A stretch of DNA of 39,140 bases from Gemmatimonadota bacterium (GTDB taxonomy: Bacteria > Gemmatimonadota > Gemmatimonadetes > Longimicrobiales > Gaopeijiaceae): assembly GCA_029863525.1 (NCBI GenBank), contig JAOTVL010000016.1, positions 1-39,140 of the forward strand, written 5' to 3'. A program made the position numbers and the translations under genes. Under the pieces are notes generated by a model. It was not told the origin of the DNA and made no database searches. It saw nothing but the letters and a program-made list of their open reading frames with translations. Positions 3,512-32,179 of the stretch are shown here, one piece after another. Within the stretch, counting starts at the first letter, position 1. Each line of letters begins with the position of its first letter.

Positions 3512-4738
3512 ATGGACCGCTCTTGGCTTTCCGCTTCGTTGATCCTGTCCACCCTGGCGTGCGTCGGAGGCGGCGACCCGAGCCTGTATGTGGCGCAGAC
3601 GGTCGTCGAGTCTCCGGCGGGACCGGACAGCGGTGAGCCGTTCCTCGCGACCGACGGCGAGCGGGTCTACCTGAGTTGGCTCGAGGCCGCCGACGACGAC
3701 CATCACGAGTTGAAGATGGCCCGTTTGGAGAGCGACGGCTGGGGCGCGCCGACGATGATCGCTCGGAGCGATCGCTTCTTCGTGAACTGGGCGGACTTCC
3801 CGTCGCTGACCCCGGGCCCGGATGGAACGCTCTGGGCTCACTGGCTACAGCGAGGCGCAGCGGGGGGGTACGACTACGCGGTGCGGATCGCTCACTCCCG
3901 CGACGGCGGCAAGGCCTGGTCCGATCCTGTCACGCTGCACGAGGACGACTCACCCACCGAGCACGGATTCGTATCGACCTTCGTCCAGGACGATGGCGTC
4001 GGCTTCGTCTGGCTCGACGGTCGCCGGTACGCGGCGGGACCCGACGGCGAGCCAGCGTCCCAAGAGATGACGTTGCGGTATCGTTTCGTGGGGGTCGATG
4101 GGTCGATGCGGGCCGAGACGCTCCTCGACGGGCGGGTCTGTGACTGCTGTCAGACCTCGTCGGCGGTGACCTCGGAGGGACCGGTGGCGGTGTATCGAGA
4201 TCGCTCGCCCCACGAGATCCGCGACATCTACATCACGCGCCTCCGCGACGGCGCGTGGACGGAGGGCTCGCCCGTCCACGAAGACGGATGGGAGATCGGG
4301 GGCTGTCCGGTGAACGGGCCCGCGGTCGCAGCGCGCGGCACGGAAGTGGCCGTGGCCTGGTTCACCGGCGCGGGCAACGTCGCCCGAGTCAAAGTGGCGT
4401 TTTCACAAGACGCCGGCGCCACGTTCGGCGAGCCGATCGTGGTGGACGACGGGAACCCCGAGGGGCGCGTCGATCTTCTACTCGGTGAGGACGGTTCGGC
4501 CTATGTGAGTTGGCTTGAGCGGACGGGAGGTGAAGCCGCCGAGGTTCGGCTCCGGAGCGTCCGACCGGACGGTGGCGCGAGCGCGAGCGCTCCGTTGGTC
4601 CGCTCCTCCGCGGGCCGGCCCAGCGGCTTTCCTCGCATGGTGGCTCGGGGGGAGGGAGACGTGATTCTGGCGTGGACCGATCTGGAGGGTGCCGCCCCTC
4701 AGGTCCGCGTCGCGCGACTGGAGCTGGAAAACGAATGA
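3512..4738 (+). CDS. BNR/sialidase-fold lipoprotein with a CDCC cysteine motif
   Basis: This 408-residue exported lipoprotein starts with a hydrophobic signal and a lipobox STLAC, giving lipidation at Cys17. The body is made of beta-propeller blades with Asp-box-like turns (for example SRDGGKAW), as in exo-alpha-sialidase-like proteins. Two cysteine motifs stand out: CDCC at 210-213 and GCPVNGP, with Cys265. I recall both as conserved in a family of uncharacterised bacterial BNR proteins; a metal site or disulfides are possible. Sialidase catalytic residues are not evident, so enzyme activity should not be assumed. An in-frame TTG at 3479 is a possible earlier start, but the ATG at 3512 places the signal peptide correctly. 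The gene overlaps the TlpA-like gene by four bases (ATGA). Confidence 0.8.
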   Translation: MDRSWLSASLILSTLACVGGGDPSLYVAQTVVESPAGPDSGEPFLATDGERVYLSWLEAADDDHHELKMARLESDGWGAPTMIARSDRFFVNWADFPSLTPGPDGTLWAHWLQRGAAGGYDYAVRIAHSRDGGKAWSDPVTLHEDDSPTEHGFVSTFVQDDGVGFVWLDGRRYAAGPDGEPASQEMTLRYRFVGVDGSMRAETLLDGRVCDCCQTSSAVTSEGPVAVYRDRSPHEIRDIYITRLRDGAWTEGSPVHEDGWEIGGCPVNGPAVAARGTEVAVAWFTGAGNVARVKVAFSQDAGATFGEPIVVDDGNPEGRVDLLLGEDGSAYVSWLERTGGEAAEVRLRSVRPDGGASASAPLVRSSAGRPSGFPRMVARGEGDVILAWTDLEGAAPQVRVARLELENE

Positions 4739-5262
4739 AGACGGCATCGAGGAACCGGAGCCTGACCTGGCCTGCGCTCCTCGCGTTGGCCGCGGTCTCG
4801 GCCTGTGAGCTCGCCGAGAACGCCGGACCTCCGCAGATCGGGCGGCCTGCCCGTGAGTACAGCGCCGCCACCTTGGCTGGGGAGCAGGTCACGCTGGAGT
4901 CGATGCGTGGGCGTGTGGTCCTCCTCAACCTCTGGGCCACGTGGTGCACACCGTGTCGGATGGAGACGCCCTACCTCCAGTCCATCTACGAGGAGCGCAG
5001 GGACGAGGGCTTCGAGATCGTCGGCATCTCCATGGATACCGGCAACGCGGCGGACGACGTCGCGATGTTCGTCGACGAGTACGGGGTGAGCTACACGATC
5101 CTGCATGATCCACAGATGCGGGGCATGGAGCTGTACAGCGTGCTGGGCCTCCCCGCGACATTTCTGATCGACCGCGACGGCGTGCTGCGCTGGATGCGGT
5201 ACGGACCGATTCCCGAGGACGATCCGGAGTTTCTCGCGGCGCTCGAGGACGCCCTGTCTTGA
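4735..5262 (+). CDS. TlpA/ResA-like thioredoxin lipoprotein
   Basis: This 175-residue protein has a lipoprotein signal with lipobox VSAC (Cys24), so it is anchored in the cell envelope. The thioredoxin fold carries the WCTPC redox motif at 70-74 and the cis-proline segment GLPATF with Pro140. The length and insertions match the TlpA/ResA/AhpC-TSA group, which reduces disulfides in exported proteins or in cytochrome c maturation. The start ATG overlaps the stop of the cysteine-rich BNR lipoprotein gene, so the two are probably co-translated and TlpA may act on that neighbour. The last four bases overlap the next gene through TTGA. Confidence 0.9.
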   Translation: MKTASRNRSLTWPALLALAAVSACELAENAGPPQIGRPAREYSAATLAGEQVTLESMRGRVVLLNLWATWCTPCRMETPYLQSIYEERRDEGFEIVGISMDTGNAADDVAMFVDEYGVSYTILHDPQMRGMELYSVLGLPATFLIDRDGVLRWMRYGPIPEDDPEFLAALEDALS

Positions 5263-6374
5263 CGCATTCGGGCCCCGAAGTGGTCGATCCCGCTTCGGTC
5301 GAAACTCCGATCGGGTGCGTCGACCTCGAGCGGGCCCGGGCCAACGCGAAACGCGTGGTTGCCTACCTCGACCGCCATGGTCTGGGCTGGCGGCCGCACA
5401 TCAAGACGCACAAGTCGCGGCTCGTGGCCCGGATTCAACTCGATGCCGGAGCGCGCGGACTCACCGTTGCGACACTGCGGGAAGCCGAGGTCATGGGCTC
5501 GCTCACCGACGATCTGCTTCTCGCGTACCCGCCGGTCGGCGACGCCAAGCTGCAGCGCTTGCTGCGGCTGCCGGCTGAGATCGACCTGAAGGTCGCACTG
5601 GATTCAGTCGAGGTCCTCGAGCCCCTTGCTCGGGCGGCGGCACAGGCGGGCCGTACGATCGGCGTGCTCGTCGAACAGGACGTGGGTTTGGGCCGGGTCG
5701 GCCTCCAATCCGCGGAAGCGGTCGCGGACCTTGCCCGGCGAACGCGTGACCTACCGGGCGTCTCATTCCGTGGGATCATGTTCTATCCGGGTCATATCCG
5801 CATGGCCGAGTCGCAACAGGGGGCGCATATCGAAGGTGTTTCCTCCTCGGTTTCGAGAACGCTCGCGGCGCTTCGCTCCGACGCGCTCGAGCCGGAGATC
5901 GTATCGGGCGGATCGACGCCCACGCTCTGGAGGAGCCACGAAGTATCGGGCCTGACCGAGATCCGTTCCGGCTCGTGCATCTACAACGACCGGGAAGCGC
6001 TCGCGGTCGGTGTGGCCGACGCGGATGATCTCGCGTATACGGTGCTCGCGACCGTCGTCAGCACGGCGGTGCCGGGCCACGCCGTGGTCGATGCCGGCTC
6101 CAAGGCCGTCTCGAAGGAGGCGCGCGGCGACGGCGAGGGGTACGGCTTCCTTCTCGAGCATCCGGAAGTGGTCGTTGCGGGTCTCTCCGAGGAGCACGGC
6201 GTGCTGGACATCGGCGCTTCGGAGTGGCGACCCCGCATCGGCGAGCGGGTCCGCATCGTTCCGAACCACGTCTGCGTCTCGGTCAACCTCCAGGACCGAG
6301 TGCTGGCGATCGACGCCGGTCAATACCGCTGGATGGCTCTCGAGGGGAGGGGGCGAGGCGCGTGGGTCGACTGA
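5259..6374 (+). CDS. D-serine dehydratase / D-threonine aldolase-like PLP enzyme
   Basis: This fold-type III PLP enzyme of 371 residues has an alanine-racemase-type N-terminal barrel. The PLP lysine is most likely Lys49 in RPHIKTHK. Near the C-terminus, NHVC places His337 and Cys339 where this family binds a divalent metal. A His-x-Cys pair is, as I recall, characteristic of the zinc-dependent eukaryotic-type D-serine dehydratase, whereas D-threonine aldolases of Alcaligenes type use His-x-Asp. The likely reaction is therefore beta-elimination from a D-hydroxy amino acid, or a retro-aldol cleavage. The TTG at 5259 overlaps the upstream stop; a GTG at 5280 is an alternative start. A ridA gene in the same operon fits a dehydratase that releases 2-aminoacrylate. 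Confidence 0.8.
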   Translation: MTHSGPEVVDPASVETPIGCVDLERARANAKRVVAYLDRHGLGWRPHIKTHKSRLVARIQLDAGARGLTVATLREAEVMGSLTDDLLLAYPPVGDAKLQRLLRLPAEIDLKVALDSVEVLEPLARAAAQAGRTIGVLVEQDVGLGRVGLQSAEAVADLARRTRDLPGVSFRGIMFYPGHIRMAESQQGAHIEGVSSSVSRTLAALRSDALEPEIVSGGSTPTLWRSHEVSGLTEIRSGSCIYNDREALAVGVADADDLAYTVLATVVSTAVPGHAVVDAGSKAVSKEARGDGEGYGFLLEHPEVVVAGLSEEHGVLDIGASEWRPRIGERVRIVPNHVCVSVNLQDRVLAIDAGQYRWMALEGRGRGAWVD

Positions 6375-7905: not shown

Positions 7906-10900
7906 ATGACGTCTTCAACGTCAGAACGTCTCACATCCGGCATGCTGCGCGGCGCGGTGGTTCTTGCGCTCGCGCTCATGATCGGCTGGTCACCGGCACC
8001 GGCAGCAGCCCAGGCGACTGGAACGCTGGTCGGTACGGTGCGGGACGCTGCGACGCAGCGTCCGCTCGAGGCGGTCCAGGTCTACATCGGGGGTACCGGG
8101 ATCGGTGCCCTGACGAACGCCGCGGGTCGCTTCCTCTTGCTCAACGTGCCGGCAGGCGAGCACACGCTCGTGGCGGAGCTCGTCGGGTATCGCTCCGGCT
8201 CGCAGACCGTGACGGTCGCCGCCGGACAGTCGGTCGTGGCCGACTTCGGGCTGCAGCAGACCGCCATCACCCTGGACCAGATCGTGGTCACGGGTGCCGG
8301 CATCGCCACGGAGAAGCGTAAGCTCGGAAACACGATCGCTACGCTGGACGCGTCCTCGCTCGAGAACGCGCCGATCTCCGACTTCAGCCAGATGATCGCG
8401 GGCCGCGAGCCCGGCCTGGTCGCGCTTCCTTCCTCCGGTTACACCGGTGAGGGTGCACGAATCCGCATCCGTGGCTCCTCGAGCCTTTCACAGCTCAACG
8501 AGCCCATCATCTACGTCGACGGCATCCGGGTGAACCGGCAGGCCGTGGACGGGAACAACGGTCAGGGCAACCCGAGCCGTCTCGACGACATTCCGCCCGA
8601 GTCCATCGAGCGCGTCGAGATCCTCAAGGGCGCCGCGGCTGCCACGCTGTACGGCACCGAGGCCTCCAACGGCGTGATCCAGATCTTCACGAAGCGCGGT
8701 CGCGCGGGCGCGCCGAGCTTCTCGGCTCAGGCCGACTGGTCGGCCATCTCGGTTCCGACCAATCGCATGCTTCCCGTGGCCGACTACATCGGCCGCGACT
8801 GCGAGGAGGTCGATTGCACGGACCCCGGTGACGCCGCGACGCTCGCGGAGATCCAGGGCCGCATGCAGGACCGCTTCGGCGTCTCGCCGGGCCCGTTCGA
8901 GCCGTTCGAGGCCGACCTGATCCCCGAGATGCTGTCGACGGGCTTCAACCAGACGTATTCGGCCTCCGTCAACGGTGGTTCGGACGCGTTCCAGTACTTC
9001 GTCTCCGCCCGCATCGCGGACGAGGACGGCCCGTACAACCCGCAGCAGAACTTCCCGGTCGTGGAAGCGCTCGACGTCGAGACCGACACGAACCGTCGTG
9101 CGGCCTTCACGTCGAACTTCACGGTGATTCCGAACCAGAAGATCCGGATCGGCGTCAGCACGCTCTATTCGGACATGGAGCACCACACGCCGGACAACGG
9201 GAACAACATCTACGGAGTGTTCTCGTCGATTCTCATGACGCAGCTGCGCCGTGCCACGACGCAGTCCGAGACGGGCGAGGGTTCCAACTACTACGGGAAC
9301 CCGGCGTTCGCCACGACGCGTGAGAACATGTACCAGCAGAACTTCGTGAACGCCCAGCACTTCGCGGGCAGCGCGAACGTCGGCTTCACGCCGACGGACA
9401 ACTTCCGCCTCGACGGCACGTTCGGCATCGACTTCACGTCCGACGATGCGGTGGCGTTCCGCCCCTACAAGTGGGCTCTGGACGGCTTCTCCGGCTCGAC
9501 GCCGGATGGTAACCGCTCGGTTGAGGAGTACCGGAGCCGCGAGATCACGGCGGACCTCAAGGGCTCGCTGATCAGCAACTTCGGTGACAACATCGAGAAT
9601 ACCTTCCTGTTCGGTGGTCAGGGCTTCCTGCGTCAGAACCAGGAAGCGGGTGGATCCGGCTCGGTGTTCCCGGGCCCCGGCCTCGAGACCCTCTCGGCGC
9701 TCGCCAACGAGGGATCCTTCGAGAGCTGGACTCGGGTCACACAGCTCGGTGGGTACCTCCAGGACCAGGTCGGCATCAACGACTGGGTCTTTGTGACGCT
9801 GGGTGGTCGTTGGGACGCCAACTCGGCGTTCGGTGAGGACTTCTCGACCGCCTTCTACCCGAAGGCCTCGATCTCCATCGTGCCCAGTCAGGGACTGGAT
9901 TGGCAGAACGAGACCTTCTCGACGTTCCGCGTCCGTGGCGCGATCGGACAGTCCGGCCTGCAGCCGGACGCGTTCGCGAAATTCACGACGTACTCGCCCG
10001 CCCCCTCCGAGGAAGGCCCTGGCGTACAGCCGTCCAACTTGGGGAACGACGCCCTGCAGCCTGAGGTGTCGACGGAGTGGGAGATCGGTGCCGAGGTGGG
10101 TCTCTTCAACGACCGTTGGTCGGTCGACGCGACGTATTGGGACCGGACGGTCTCCGACGCGCTCGTGGCCCGCCAGTTCTCGGTGACCGGTGGCTTCACG
10201 GCCGAGCAGCTCGTCAACATCGGTGAGCTGGTCGGCAGTGGCTTCGAGGTCAGCCTCCGTGGTACCGCGCTCCAGAGGGAAGGCTTCTCGCTGAACGTGT
10301 TCGCGAACACGGCGTACCTCAGCGAGGAGATCACCAGCCTGGGTGGCGCTCCGCCGCTCAAGACGGGTGGCTCGTATCCGCGCTACCGGAACTTCCTCGT
10401 GGAAGGCTACACCCCGGGCGCATTCTTCGGGGCGACGACGGCCGACGTCCCGATTCCGTTGAACTTGGACGGTTCCTGCACGGTTCCGTCCGAGGCCGAC
10501 GCGCTGGCCTACTTCGCCACGCCGCGCAGCCCGAGCGACTTCAAGCCTCTGGCGCCGGCGAACTCCGACTTCGGTGAGCCGATTTCGGGGCAGTACTCTT
10601 CGAACAACTGCGGTGAGGGGCTCCTGCTGAGCTACCTCGGCAAGCCCACGCCCGACTTTGCGGGCTCGTTCGGCTTCAACATGTCGTTCGCGCAGAACTT
10701 CGAGCTGAACACGCTCTTCGAGTACAAGCAGGGCATCCAGAACCAGGACCTCTCGGGCATGTTCCGGCGGGCGAACGCGGTCATCGGCCGCAACACGCCG
10801 CGGGCTGCCGAGCTCGGCTCGATCATGGGTGATCCGACGTCGTCGGCGCAGCAGCGTCTCGATGCGGCGGTCGCCTGGGCCAACGAGATCGAGGGTCTGT

Positions 10901-11202: not shown

Positions 11203-11214
11203 GGGGATTTGATC

Positions 11215-12624
11215 ATGAAGAACCGAATCAAAGCTCCCTTGACGGCTGTCGCGGCCGCGTTGGTCCTCTCGGGGTGTAACCTCCTCGACGTGGACAACCC
11301 GAACAGCCTCGTGGAGGAGTCGATACGACTCGAGGCGGCAGCCAACGGCGTCGCCAACGGGTCTCTACAGTTGGTCAGCAATGCGATCTCCGACATTTGG
11401 GAAGGTCCCTCCGTCGTCGCGGACGAGCTCGATTGGATCGGCTCACGTGACGCGTGGGGCTCGCTCGATCAGGGCGCCATTGACGACCCGAACAACGAGT
11501 TCCTGGACTCCGCGTTCCCGACCTTGGGACGCGGGGTTTGGATGGCGCAGAACGCGGTCGAGATCCTCGCGGGTCACGTCGCGGAGAACCCCGGCGTCGA
11601 TTCGTTCGAGAAGGATTACGCGCGTTCGCTCATGTTCCGCGGCCTGATACTGATGGTCGTGGCGGAGTCGCAGCAGGACATGACCTTCTCCTACAAGATG
11701 ACGGACGGGCCTGCGGTCAGTTCCGGCGGCGCGGTCATCGGGAGCGAGGGCAACGAAATCCCTGTTGCGTCCATGGACGCCGTGATGGATGTCGCCATCA
11801 GCTCTCTGGTCGATGCGAAGACTCGCTTCGCAGCGCTCGGTGAAGACGACCTCGAGCTCAACGCCACCGCACTGCTGGTGCGGGCCGAGAGCTCCGAGGA
11901 GATCATGGGTGCCCGCAACTCAGTGGGTGGCGCCCTCGACTTTGCCGACGCCATTCCTTACGCCAATGAGCTCATCGCGGCGGCGTCGGGATCGGACTGG
12001 AAGTTCAATTTGAACTACTCCTCGGCGTCGAGCGGCTGCGACCTGTGTGGCAACATCAGCGACCGGAAGGAGAACCAGTTCGACCAGTCGCTGGTCACGT
12101 GGGACGCGTCGAACGACGTGGACGGCATCGCGCTGCAGGATCCGATTTCGGGTGGGGATGATCTCGCCCTGATCAACGCGATGGACCAGTTCCGCGGTGG
12201 AAGCTACCTGGACGCGGGAACGGCGTTCGTGCCGTTGACCGTGACTTCGGCCCGGTTGGCGCACGTCGTCGTGGCCGAGCATGAGCTGGCGAACGGCAAC
12301 GGAGGACCCGGTGGTGCCTTCGAGGCGGCGATCAACGCCCTTCGGGACATCGACGATTCCGACGCCGGGCACGACTTCACGTCTGGTGGTGCGGTAAGCG
12401 ACGTGGAAGCGCTCCAGCACAGCCGCAGGGTGAACACCCTGCTTCAGGGGCTGCGTCTGCAGGACATGTACCGTTGGGGCCTAGAGCCGGGTTCGGATTC
12501 AGCTCCGGACGCGCGCTGGCAGCCGGGTGCTACGGCGTCGACTTCGCCCGGCACCATGCTTCCGATCACCATCATCGAGATCCGTGCGAACTGCAATCTG
12601 AACGGACAGGGTTGCTCGGGCTGA
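11215..12624 (+). CDS. SusD/RagB-like outer-membrane lipoprotein
   Basis: This 469-residue lipoprotein has the lipobox VLSGC followed by NLLDVDNP, the usual SusD opening. Its helical TPR-like body includes SLMFRGLILM and, near the end, LLQGLRLQDMYRWG, both typical of the RagB/SusD family. It should cap the SusC channel and bind the ligand at the cell surface. Cysteine pairs occur in SGCDLCGN and in the last residues (NCNLNGQGC), so disulfides are likely. The ATG at 11215 was preferred over a TTG two codons earlier because AAGGGG lies at an ordinary distance upstream. It starts 12 bases after susC and ends before a strong terminator. Confidence 0.92.
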   Translation: MKNRIKAPLTAVAAALVLSGCNLLDVDNPNSLVEESIRLEAAANGVANGSLQLVSNAISDIWEGPSVVADELDWIGSRDAWGSLDQGAIDDPNNEFLDSAFPTLGRGVWMAQNAVEILAGHVAENPGVDSFEKDYARSLMFRGLILMVVAESQQDMTFSYKMTDGPAVSSGGAVIGSEGNEIPVASMDAVMDVAISSLVDAKTRFAALGEDDLELNATALLVRAESSEEIMGARNSVGGALDFADAIPYANELIAAASGSDWKFNLNYSSASSGCDLCGNISDRKENQFDQSLVTWDASNDVDGIALQDPISGGDDLALINAMDQFRGGSYLDAGTAFVPLTVTSARLAHVVVAEHELANGNGGPGGAFEAAINALRDIDDSDAGHDFTSGGAVSDVEALQHSRRVNTLLQGLRLQDMYRWGLEPGSDSAPDARWQPGATASTSPGTMLPITIIEIRANCNLNGQGCSG

Positions 12625-12667
12625 TGAGGGACCGGTAGCACGCCGGAAAAGCAGCAGTAAGGAAAGG

Positions 12668-19606: not shown

Positions 19607-19703
19607 GGGGGCGGAGGGAGACTGGTGTCTCCGGCGGTCTTCAAAACCGTGCAGCCCGGCTAGAACCCGGGTGGGTGGGTTCGATTCCCACACGCTCCCG
19701 CCA
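19607..19703 (+). tRNA. selC: tRNA-Sec, anticodon TCA
   Basis: The 97-base gene folds as a bacterial selenocysteine tRNA. The acceptor stem is 19607-19614 with 19692-19699 (seven pairs including one G-T, plus a terminal G-A mismatch). There is a two-base linker, then an extended six-pair D-stem (19617-19622 with 19627-19632) closing a four-base loop TGGT. The anticodon stem 19634-19638/19646-19650 carries the loop CTTCAAA with anticodon TCA at 19641-19643. The long variable arm has five pairs (19655-19659 with 19667-19671), and the T-arm is GTGGG-TTCGATT-CCCAC. Discriminator G19700 and an encoded CCA complete it. The element lengths match Escherichia coli selC segment by segment. It implies UGA recoding by SelA/SelB/SelD, none of which is in the window. 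Confidence 0.93.
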
Positions 19704-23270: not shown

Positions 23271-23614
23271 TGGACCTGGCCCTCGACGTGCTGAGCTGGG
23301 TCTCGATCGCGGGCGGCCTCTTCTTCATGCTCGTCGGTACCTTCGGGCTCTTGCGTCTCCCGGACGTCTACACCCGGCTGCACGCGGCGGGCATGACCGA
23401 CACCATGGGCGCCGGGCTCCTGCTGCTCGGCATGGCGCTCCAGACCGTACTCGGCATTCTGCACGGCGACACCCACTACTGGTCCGTTTTGGTGCGCCTC
23501 GTGCTGGTCTACCTGTTCCTATTGGCCACCAGCCCGATCGCGACCCACGCGCTCGCCCGCGCCGGCATCGCGGGCGGGGTCGAACCGTGGACGAACGAAG
23601 AGGTGGGTTCGTGA
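23270..23614 (+). CDS. mrpG: MrpG/MbhC-like cation antiporter subunit
   Basis: This 114-residue protein has three membrane helices. The MrpG signature RLPDVYTRLHAAGMTDTMGAG (split as RLPDVYTRLH and AAGMTDT) lies near 29-48. The ATG at 23270 overlaps the mrpF stop by one base; a TTG one codon earlier is possible. It ends inside the start of the next gene (GTGA). It is equivalent to MbhC in membrane-bound hydrogenase. Confidence 0.92.
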   Translation: MDLALDVLSWVSIAGGLFFMLVGTFGLLRLPDVYTRLHAAGMTDTMGAGLLLLGMALQTVLGILHGDTHYWSVLVRLVLVYLFLLATSPIATHALARAGIAGGVEPWTNEEVGS

Positions 23615-24279
23615 TCTCGCCCACCGAAGTCGTCGACATCGTCCTCCTGATCCTGCTCGCCGTCACGGGGGTCGCGGTCATTCGCACCCGTAACCTCTTC
23701 GCGGCGGTCATGCTCGCGGGAATCTACAGCCTCGTTTCGGCCGGCCTCTTCGTCGTCATGGACGCGGTCGACGTCGCCTTCACCGAGGCCGCGGTCGGGG
23801 CGGGCATCTCGACCGTGCTGATGCTCGGGACGCTCGCGTTGGTTGGCTACCAGGAGCACGAGCCTCGGCACACGCCCCTGCTTCCGCTCTTCGTGGTGGT
23901 GCTGACCGGGGGGATCCTGGTGTACGGGACGACCGACATGCCTCCGTTCGGGCACCCGGAGAACCCGGCACATCAGCACGTCGCCCCGCACTATCTGGAA
24001 GAGTCGGAGCACGAGGTCGGACACATCCCCAACGTCGTGACCTCCGTGCTGGCCTCCTATCGGGGCTACGACACGATGGGTGAGACCGCGGTGGTCTTCA
24101 CCGCCATGGTCGGTGTGCTCCTGCTGCTGTCGCGCGGGCCGCTGCCGCGCCGAGTGCACCACAATGGGCGTTGGATCACGGTTCGCCCCGGCACGACGCG
24201 AGAGGAGCTCGAAGCGCGGATGCTCGCCGAGTCGGGGGATGAGCCCGAGCCCGTGGACGGGGAGGGCGCGCGTGGATGA
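23611..24279 (+). CDS. MbhD-MbhE fusion (C-terminal part of MrpA as a separate protein)
   Basis: This 222-residue membrane protein joins two domains. Residues 1-80 match MbhD (DUF4040), with the helix-loop DVAFTEAAVGAGIST. Residues about 90-190 match MbhE, with VTSVLASYRGYDTMGET and a following helix. In canonical Mrp systems these domains form the C-terminal tail of the long MrpA subunit; in Pyrococcus membrane-bound hydrogenase they are the separate MbhD and MbhE. Here they are fused to each other but detached from the antiporter-like part. A His-rich linker (HPENPAHQHVAPHY) lies between the domains. The GTG at 23611 overlaps the mrpG stop, and the last eight bases overlap the MrpB-like gene. 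Confidence 0.88.
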   Translation: MISPTEVVDIVLLILLAVTGVAVIRTRNLFAAVMLAGIYSLVSAGLFVVMDAVDVAFTEAAVGAGISTVLMLGTLALVGYQEHEPRHTPLLPLFVVVLTGGILVYGTTDMPPFGHPENPAHQHVAPHYLEESEHEVGHIPNVVTSVLASYRGYDTMGETAVVFTAMVGVLLLLSRGPLPRRVHHNGRWITVRPGTTREELEARMLAESGDEPEPVDGEGARG

Positions 24280-31457: not shown

Positions 31458-32179
31458 GCGAGCGACACGACGGTCGACGACCGGACCAGGGGCGTCCCGT
31501 CTCGATCGAGACCGGCGTCTCTCCCTATGCGGAAGGGTCGTGCTTGATCGCGACCGGCGATACCCGGGTCCTCTGCACGGCGAGCGTGACCGAGGGCGTG
31601 CCCAAGTGGCGGGAGCGGAGCGGGGCGGGGTGGGTGACCGCGGAGTACGCCATGCTGCCCAGGGCCACGCACACGCGGACTGGCCGGGAACGGAACGGCC
31701 CGAGGGGACGCACTCAAGAGATCCAGCGGCTCATCGGTCGCTCGCTCCGCTCGGTAACGGACATGAGCGCCATCGGCCCGTACACCATCACGGTCGACTG
31801 CGACGTGGTGCAGGCCGATGGTGGGACGCGTACCGCATCCATCACCGGCGCGTTCGTCGCGGTCGCGCTGGCCGGCCGCTGGATGCTCTCGGAGGGTCTG
31901 GTCGATCGAACGTTCCTTCGGGAAAAGGTGGCCGCCGTGAGCGTCGGCCTCGTCGATGGCCTTCCGTGTCTCGACCTGGATTACGCCGAGGATTCGGCCG
32001 CCCAGGTCGACATGAACCTCGTCGCGACGGAGAGCGGTGGCCTGGTGGAGGTCCAGGGGACGGCGGAGGGCGATCCCTTCCCGCGTGCCGCGCTCGACGA
32101 GTTGATGGATCTGGGCATGGCCGGCATCGAGTCGCTCGTGGCGGCTCAGGCGCGCGCGCTCGCCGCCGCCGGCGCGTGA
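31454..32179 (+). CDS. rph: Ribonuclease PH
   Basis: This 241-residue phosphorolytic exoribonuclease trims tRNA 3' ends. The family segments are in order: [60 protein letters not shown] (split as [10 protein letters not shown] and TRTASITG), and the C-terminal EVQGTAEG. The encoded trimming enzyme is consistent with the CCA-containing tRNA-Sec elsewhere in the window, although the link is only general. rph followed by a RdgB/HAM1 gene is a widespread pairing. The ATG overlaps the rfaE2 stop. Confidence 0.95.

Follow-up and report, generated by a model that had tools for sequence, protein, structure and literature searches.

A selenocysteine tRNA gene of a Gemmatimonadota bacterium with a conserved G·A opposition in its acceptor stem, and the selenocysteine genes that accompany it

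The segment at 19607-19703 of the window (the whole stretch of 39,140 nt that was analysed) is a genuine, ordinary bacterial tRNA-Sec gene, and comparative data indicate that it is almost certainly the organism's functional selC, which would serve a bacterial Sec system of tRNA charging, conversion and UGA decoding. This reading draws on the structure of the tRNA, the presence of the sel genes in the genome, UGA codons at conserved redox positions, and the fact that relatives keep the tRNA, the site where it lies and one of these codons. The window corresponds to one entire contig, C130, of a metagenome-assembled genome (MAG) that comprises 221 contigs and 3.62 Mb, with an estimated completeness of 83% and contamination of 2.9%. 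The gene is of a known kind, and the clade-specific G·A pair in its acceptor stem is the only point for specialist follow-up.

Identity and structure of the tRNA-Sec gene

ARAGORN, applied to the whole window, called a single tRNA, a tRNA-Sec with anticodon TCA. The Rfam covariance model RF01852 (model positions 1-91) aligned to 19607-19699 and scored 70.3 bits (E 1.5e-12), well over the gathering score of 47 bits. The identity proposed in the initial annotation was thus upheld, including by the covariance check suggested there. A genome-wide search gave no second match reaching the RF01852 cut-off.

Base reading bore out the hallmarks that had been listed, namely the UCA anticodon, an acceptor of eight positions, encoded CCA, a six-pair D-stem with a four-base loop, and a long variable arm. 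The gene shares the anticodon, the D-arm and variable-arm features, a score above the gathering score, G73 and, counted in positions, the 8/5 layout of acceptor and T stems with bacterial tRNA-Sec of RF01852; unlike these, its eighth acceptor pair is G-A and not Watson-Crick. The acceptor strands GGGGGCGG and ACGCUCCC form the pairs GC, GC, GC, GU, GC, CG and GC, followed by G-A at position 8. This innermost mismatch had already been noticed, and the G-U wobble at pair 4 had not. The anticodon stem (GCGGU/ACCGU) and the T-arm (GUGGG/CCCAC) each have five pairs, and the discriminator G (G73) is followed by the encoded CCA. The unconstrained minimum free energy fold of the RNA was the same cloverleaf with seven acceptor pairs (-47.5 kcal/mol); because this energy is by itself unexceptional (z -1.7), the weight for tRNA-Sec lies on the model match and on conservation. 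Another T-stem register, in which the A of the G·A would be paired, was ruled out because the base preceding the T-stem is G. Sigma-70 promoter and intrinsic terminator consensus sequences were searched for beside the gene, and neither was found.

With seven standard acceptor pairs and five T pairs, 12 in all, the tRNA resembles 7/5 tRNA-Sec, whose published 12-pair forms lack a base or have one bulged out and leave seven residues between the T-stem and G73 (PMC5330540). However, base reading and folding showed that it keeps eight positions on each acceptor strand in addition to the five T pairs, with G and A opposed at the eighth and no nucleotide missing or bulged.

Table 1. Features of the tRNA-Sec gene (window coordinates)
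Feature	Position	Strand	Evidence
tRNA-Sec (selC), anticodon UCA, encoded CCA	19607..19703	+	ARAGORN; Rfam RF01852 70.3 bits; fold
Acceptor stem 5' strand, eighth base G faces A	19607..19614	+	base reading
D-arm: 6-bp stem GGAGAC/GUCUCC, loop UGGU	19617..19632	+	Rfam, base reading, fold
Anticodon UCA	19641..19643	+	ARAGORN position 35
Long variable arm CCCGG/CCGGG and outer G-U	19654..19672	+	Rfam, fold
3'-terminal segment of the tRNA-Sec gene	19692..19703	+	base reading

Selenocysteine machinery and UGA-containing genes

Profile searches of the genome, as the initial annotation had proposed, recovered all three sel genes above their curated cut-offs: selA on contig C21 (529.5 bits, cut-off 267.9), selB on contig C175 (313.8 bits, cut-off 242.25) and selD on contig C55 (385.1 bits, cut-off 125). 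None lies on C130, so within this contig the statement that the tRNA gene is alone, with no sel genes nearby, also held. The selB product has GTPase, EF-Tu domain 2 and SelB beta-barrel domains; its C-terminal SECIS-binding part lies outside the visible sequence because the frame runs past the contig end.

The suggestion that some UGA codons are read as Sec is supported by the presence of selA, selB and selD and by in-frame UGA at catalytic positions of SelD, a peroxiredoxin-like protein and two AhpD-like proteins. This list, of at least four genes, is incomplete because it was drawn from targeted family searches. The single in-frame TGA of selD falls within SHGAGUACKLG, where SelD is known to carry Sec, and this motif, with U, was identical in 11 Gemmatimonadota relatives. 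About 2.6 kb upstream on the same strand, an AhpC/TSA (PF00578) gene (L133 1320-1984, contig C55) has an in-frame TGA in FYRGHWUPYCAQQ, at the catalytic site (WUPYC), and the TGA was found at the same codon in 13 orthologues from the genus and family. Listed selenoprotein families include PF00578 with UxxC and an AhpD type with CxxU (PMC13188914). The UPYC at the catalytic site likens this protein to the Prx-like thiol:disulfide oxidoreductase selenoproteins of that list (PF00578, UxxC); it differs from them in that a lipoprotein-type signal (LGGC) precedes the peroxiredoxin-like domain and in that it reached no NCBIfam cut-off. This peroxiredoxin-like lipoprotein is likely to be a selenoprotein, which standard annotation would cut short. 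Two CMD/AhpD-family genes, L206 (contig C202) and L207 (contig C98), encode CFYU at the CxxC site. One of them reached 124.9 bits with TIGR01926 and is similar to the CFYUT family NF041238, with a score under that family's cut-off; both likely encode selenoproteins. No in-frame TGA was seen in the genome's molybdopterin oxidoreductases (PF00384, formate dehydrogenase type) or in its DsbA-like proteins (PF01323).

Genes with an in-frame TGA followed by a SECIS hairpin had also been proposed as a check. The first part was borne out by the genes above, and for the SECIS part folding predicted hairpins downstream of the UGA in the peroxiredoxin-like and selD genes, in stretches that are also protein-coding. 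About 17 nt downstream of the peroxiredoxin-like UGA lies a stretch that can form a hairpin, CAGCUC-GGU-GAGCUG or a sequence close to it. Because this stretch encodes a conserved peptide, QLGEL, the conserved hairpin supports a SECIS but does not independently prove one.

In the proposed pathway, the selC transcript would be charged with serine by SerRS, SelA would convert the charged tRNA to Sec-tRNA with selenophosphate from SelD, itself a predicted selenoprotein, and SelB would carry the Sec-tRNA to UGA codons that have a SECIS hairpin after them. The predicted Sec products are SelD, a putatively secreted lipoprotein of peroxiredoxin/thiol oxidoreductase type (UxxC) and two AhpD-like, presumably peroxidase-related proteins (CxxU). 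Several redox genes of these genomes would be mis-annotated, either truncated or missed, unless UGA is taken as Sec.

The window was also scanned for ORFs of coding-like composition that continue through one or two in-frame TGA codons, and none of the four candidates obtained was a credible selenoprotein gene. The candidate at 5091-5708 (-) is partly antisense to the AhpC/TSA gene of the window, 9465-9821 (-) is antisense to a SusC-type gene, 31525-31845 (-) is antisense to another coding-like ORF, and 11209-12660 (+) merely adds 12 codons beyond an ordinary stop. This AhpC/TSA redoxin gene, at 4672-5262 (+), has no in-frame TGA and is thus a paralogue, without Sec, of the UGA-containing peroxiredoxin-like gene. 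The segment 7906-12624 (+) holds the SusC/RagA-type TonB-dependent receptor gene (411 bits, TIGR04056) and, after it, a 471-aa ORF where a SusD-like partner would be expected; this ORF had no Pfam match.

Genomic place and distribution in Gemmatimonadota

Within the genus, the tRNA-Sec gene is flanked by Vps10-like/acyltransferase genes on one side and by DUF5683/metallophosphoesterase/LptE/Mbh genes on the other, as seen in 11 relatives, in some of which a contig end interrupts the region; the right-hand neighbours are common to four other genera of the family. The tRNA itself was conserved across relatives, and the intergenic sequence on either side was not. In G017, a relative assembled as one contig, the tRNA-Sec gene (at 1,361,729) is about 540 kb from selA (at 823,199) and about 0.9 Mb from the peroxiredoxin-like gene; the former distance indicates that its standing alone is real in the clade. 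Judged by gene order, the tRNA-Sec gene stands alone by ancestry, in a place conserved in the family and away from the sel genes. In the window, the gene at 23587-24279 (+) belongs to a run of genes on one strand that probably forms an antiporter operon of Mrp/Mbh type; its product has MbhD/MbhE and cation/H+ antiporter (DUF4040) domains.

Out of a sample of 200 genomes of the phylum, about 148 had a strong tRNA-Sec match (best E under roughly 3e-10), which makes the gene common there; the weaker matches among the 200 are probably other tRNAs with long variable arms. When tRNA-Sec (at least 60 bits) and selA were compared in 39 genomes, both were present in 20, only the tRNA in 4, only selA in 5 and neither in 10 (Fisher p 0.002), and most of the discordant genomes were incomplete. 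Two Gemmatimonadota genomes each had two matches of at least 60 bits, about 4.8 kb apart in one (G159:C8 417202-422140) and on contigs C6 and C40 in the other (G071).

SelA and SelB have been reported in most symbiont bins of a sponge study whose bins came from various phyla, Gemmatimonadetes included (PMC5649159), and sel genes in about half of hadal sediment MAGs (PMC8938466). The literature found that joins Gemmatimonadota with selenocysteine consisted of few papers with incidental mentions and gave no detailed description; the present data document selenocysteine use for the phylum.

Alternative readings and the G·A opposition

Two alternatives would deny the organism selenocysteine insertion through this gene. 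The tRNA might be of another type that resembles tRNA-Sec and does not insert selenocysteine (a selC*-type tRNA-Cys or an allo-tRNA), and the G-A at the eighth acceptor pair does depart from the textbook 8+5 stem. However, the UCA anticodon, the full match to the tRNA-Sec model, G73 and the three sel genes argue against such a tRNA, which is already contradicted by the UGA at the Sec site of SelD and by the UGA-containing peroxiredoxin-like gene, and we consider it extremely improbable. It might also be that the window contig or the sel contigs are contaminants of the bin and that the organism does not use Sec, since the assembly is a MAG with some estimated contamination, the sel contigs are tied to the window by binning only, and the GC of the selB contig is slightly higher (0.689) than that of the others. 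Against this, the gene order round the tRNA is common to 11 genomes of the same genus, selA is present in most genomes of that genus, and the GC of the window agrees with that of the selA and selD contigs (0.663-0.667). The nearest named relatives of SelD, moreover, come from Gemmatimonadales/Gemmatimonadetes MAGs (74-77% identity), and by its relatives the genome is placed in Gemmatimonadota. Contamination as the explanation is thus hardly credible.

The third alternative, a decaying or pseudogenic tRNA-Sec in which the G-A mismatch is damage, could appeal to the one non-canonical acceptor pair and the one wobble. We compared the acceptor stem in 45 distinct Gemmatimonadota tRNA-Sec sequences. 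The eighth pair was G·A in 38, C-G in 3, U-A in 2 and G·G in 2; pairs 1-7 were always Watson-Crick or G·U, with pairs 4-6 varying among standard pairs, and the D-loop was UGGU in 43 of the 45. The retention of G·A in so many sequences shows that the eighth pair is not a defect. With this pair kept while pairs 4-6 change, the spacer unconserved and no other match in the genome at the family cut-off, decay is most unlikely, and a functional selC remains the preferred reading.

In 14 genomes of other phyla, which were fetched through SelD and in a few of which the register of the eighth pair is uncertain, this pair was C-G, A-U, U-A, G·G or A·G, and it was G·A in one Bacillota MAG. Occasional acceptor mismatches have been reported to leave the helix undisrupted, and the 8-bp acceptor to be the main SelB determinant (PMC7609411). 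The literature searched, the coverage of which was partial, yielded no account of a conserved G·A at this acceptor position. The G·A may be neutral. A more speculative reading, which we regard as rather unlikely, is that it is a selected, clade-wide purine-purine pair of Gemmatimonadota that replaces the eighth Watson-Crick pair and is read by a co-adapted SelA or SelB; if so, the '8-bp acceptor' rule would become one of seven pairs plus a stacked purine pair. In a small way, the conserved G·A is a natural experiment on whether SelA and SelB strictly require an acceptor of 8 bp. The tRNA-Sec of three Chloroflexota (L181, L183 and L184) has G-G at the eighth acceptor pair, another purine-purine opposition, which may be a parallel case.
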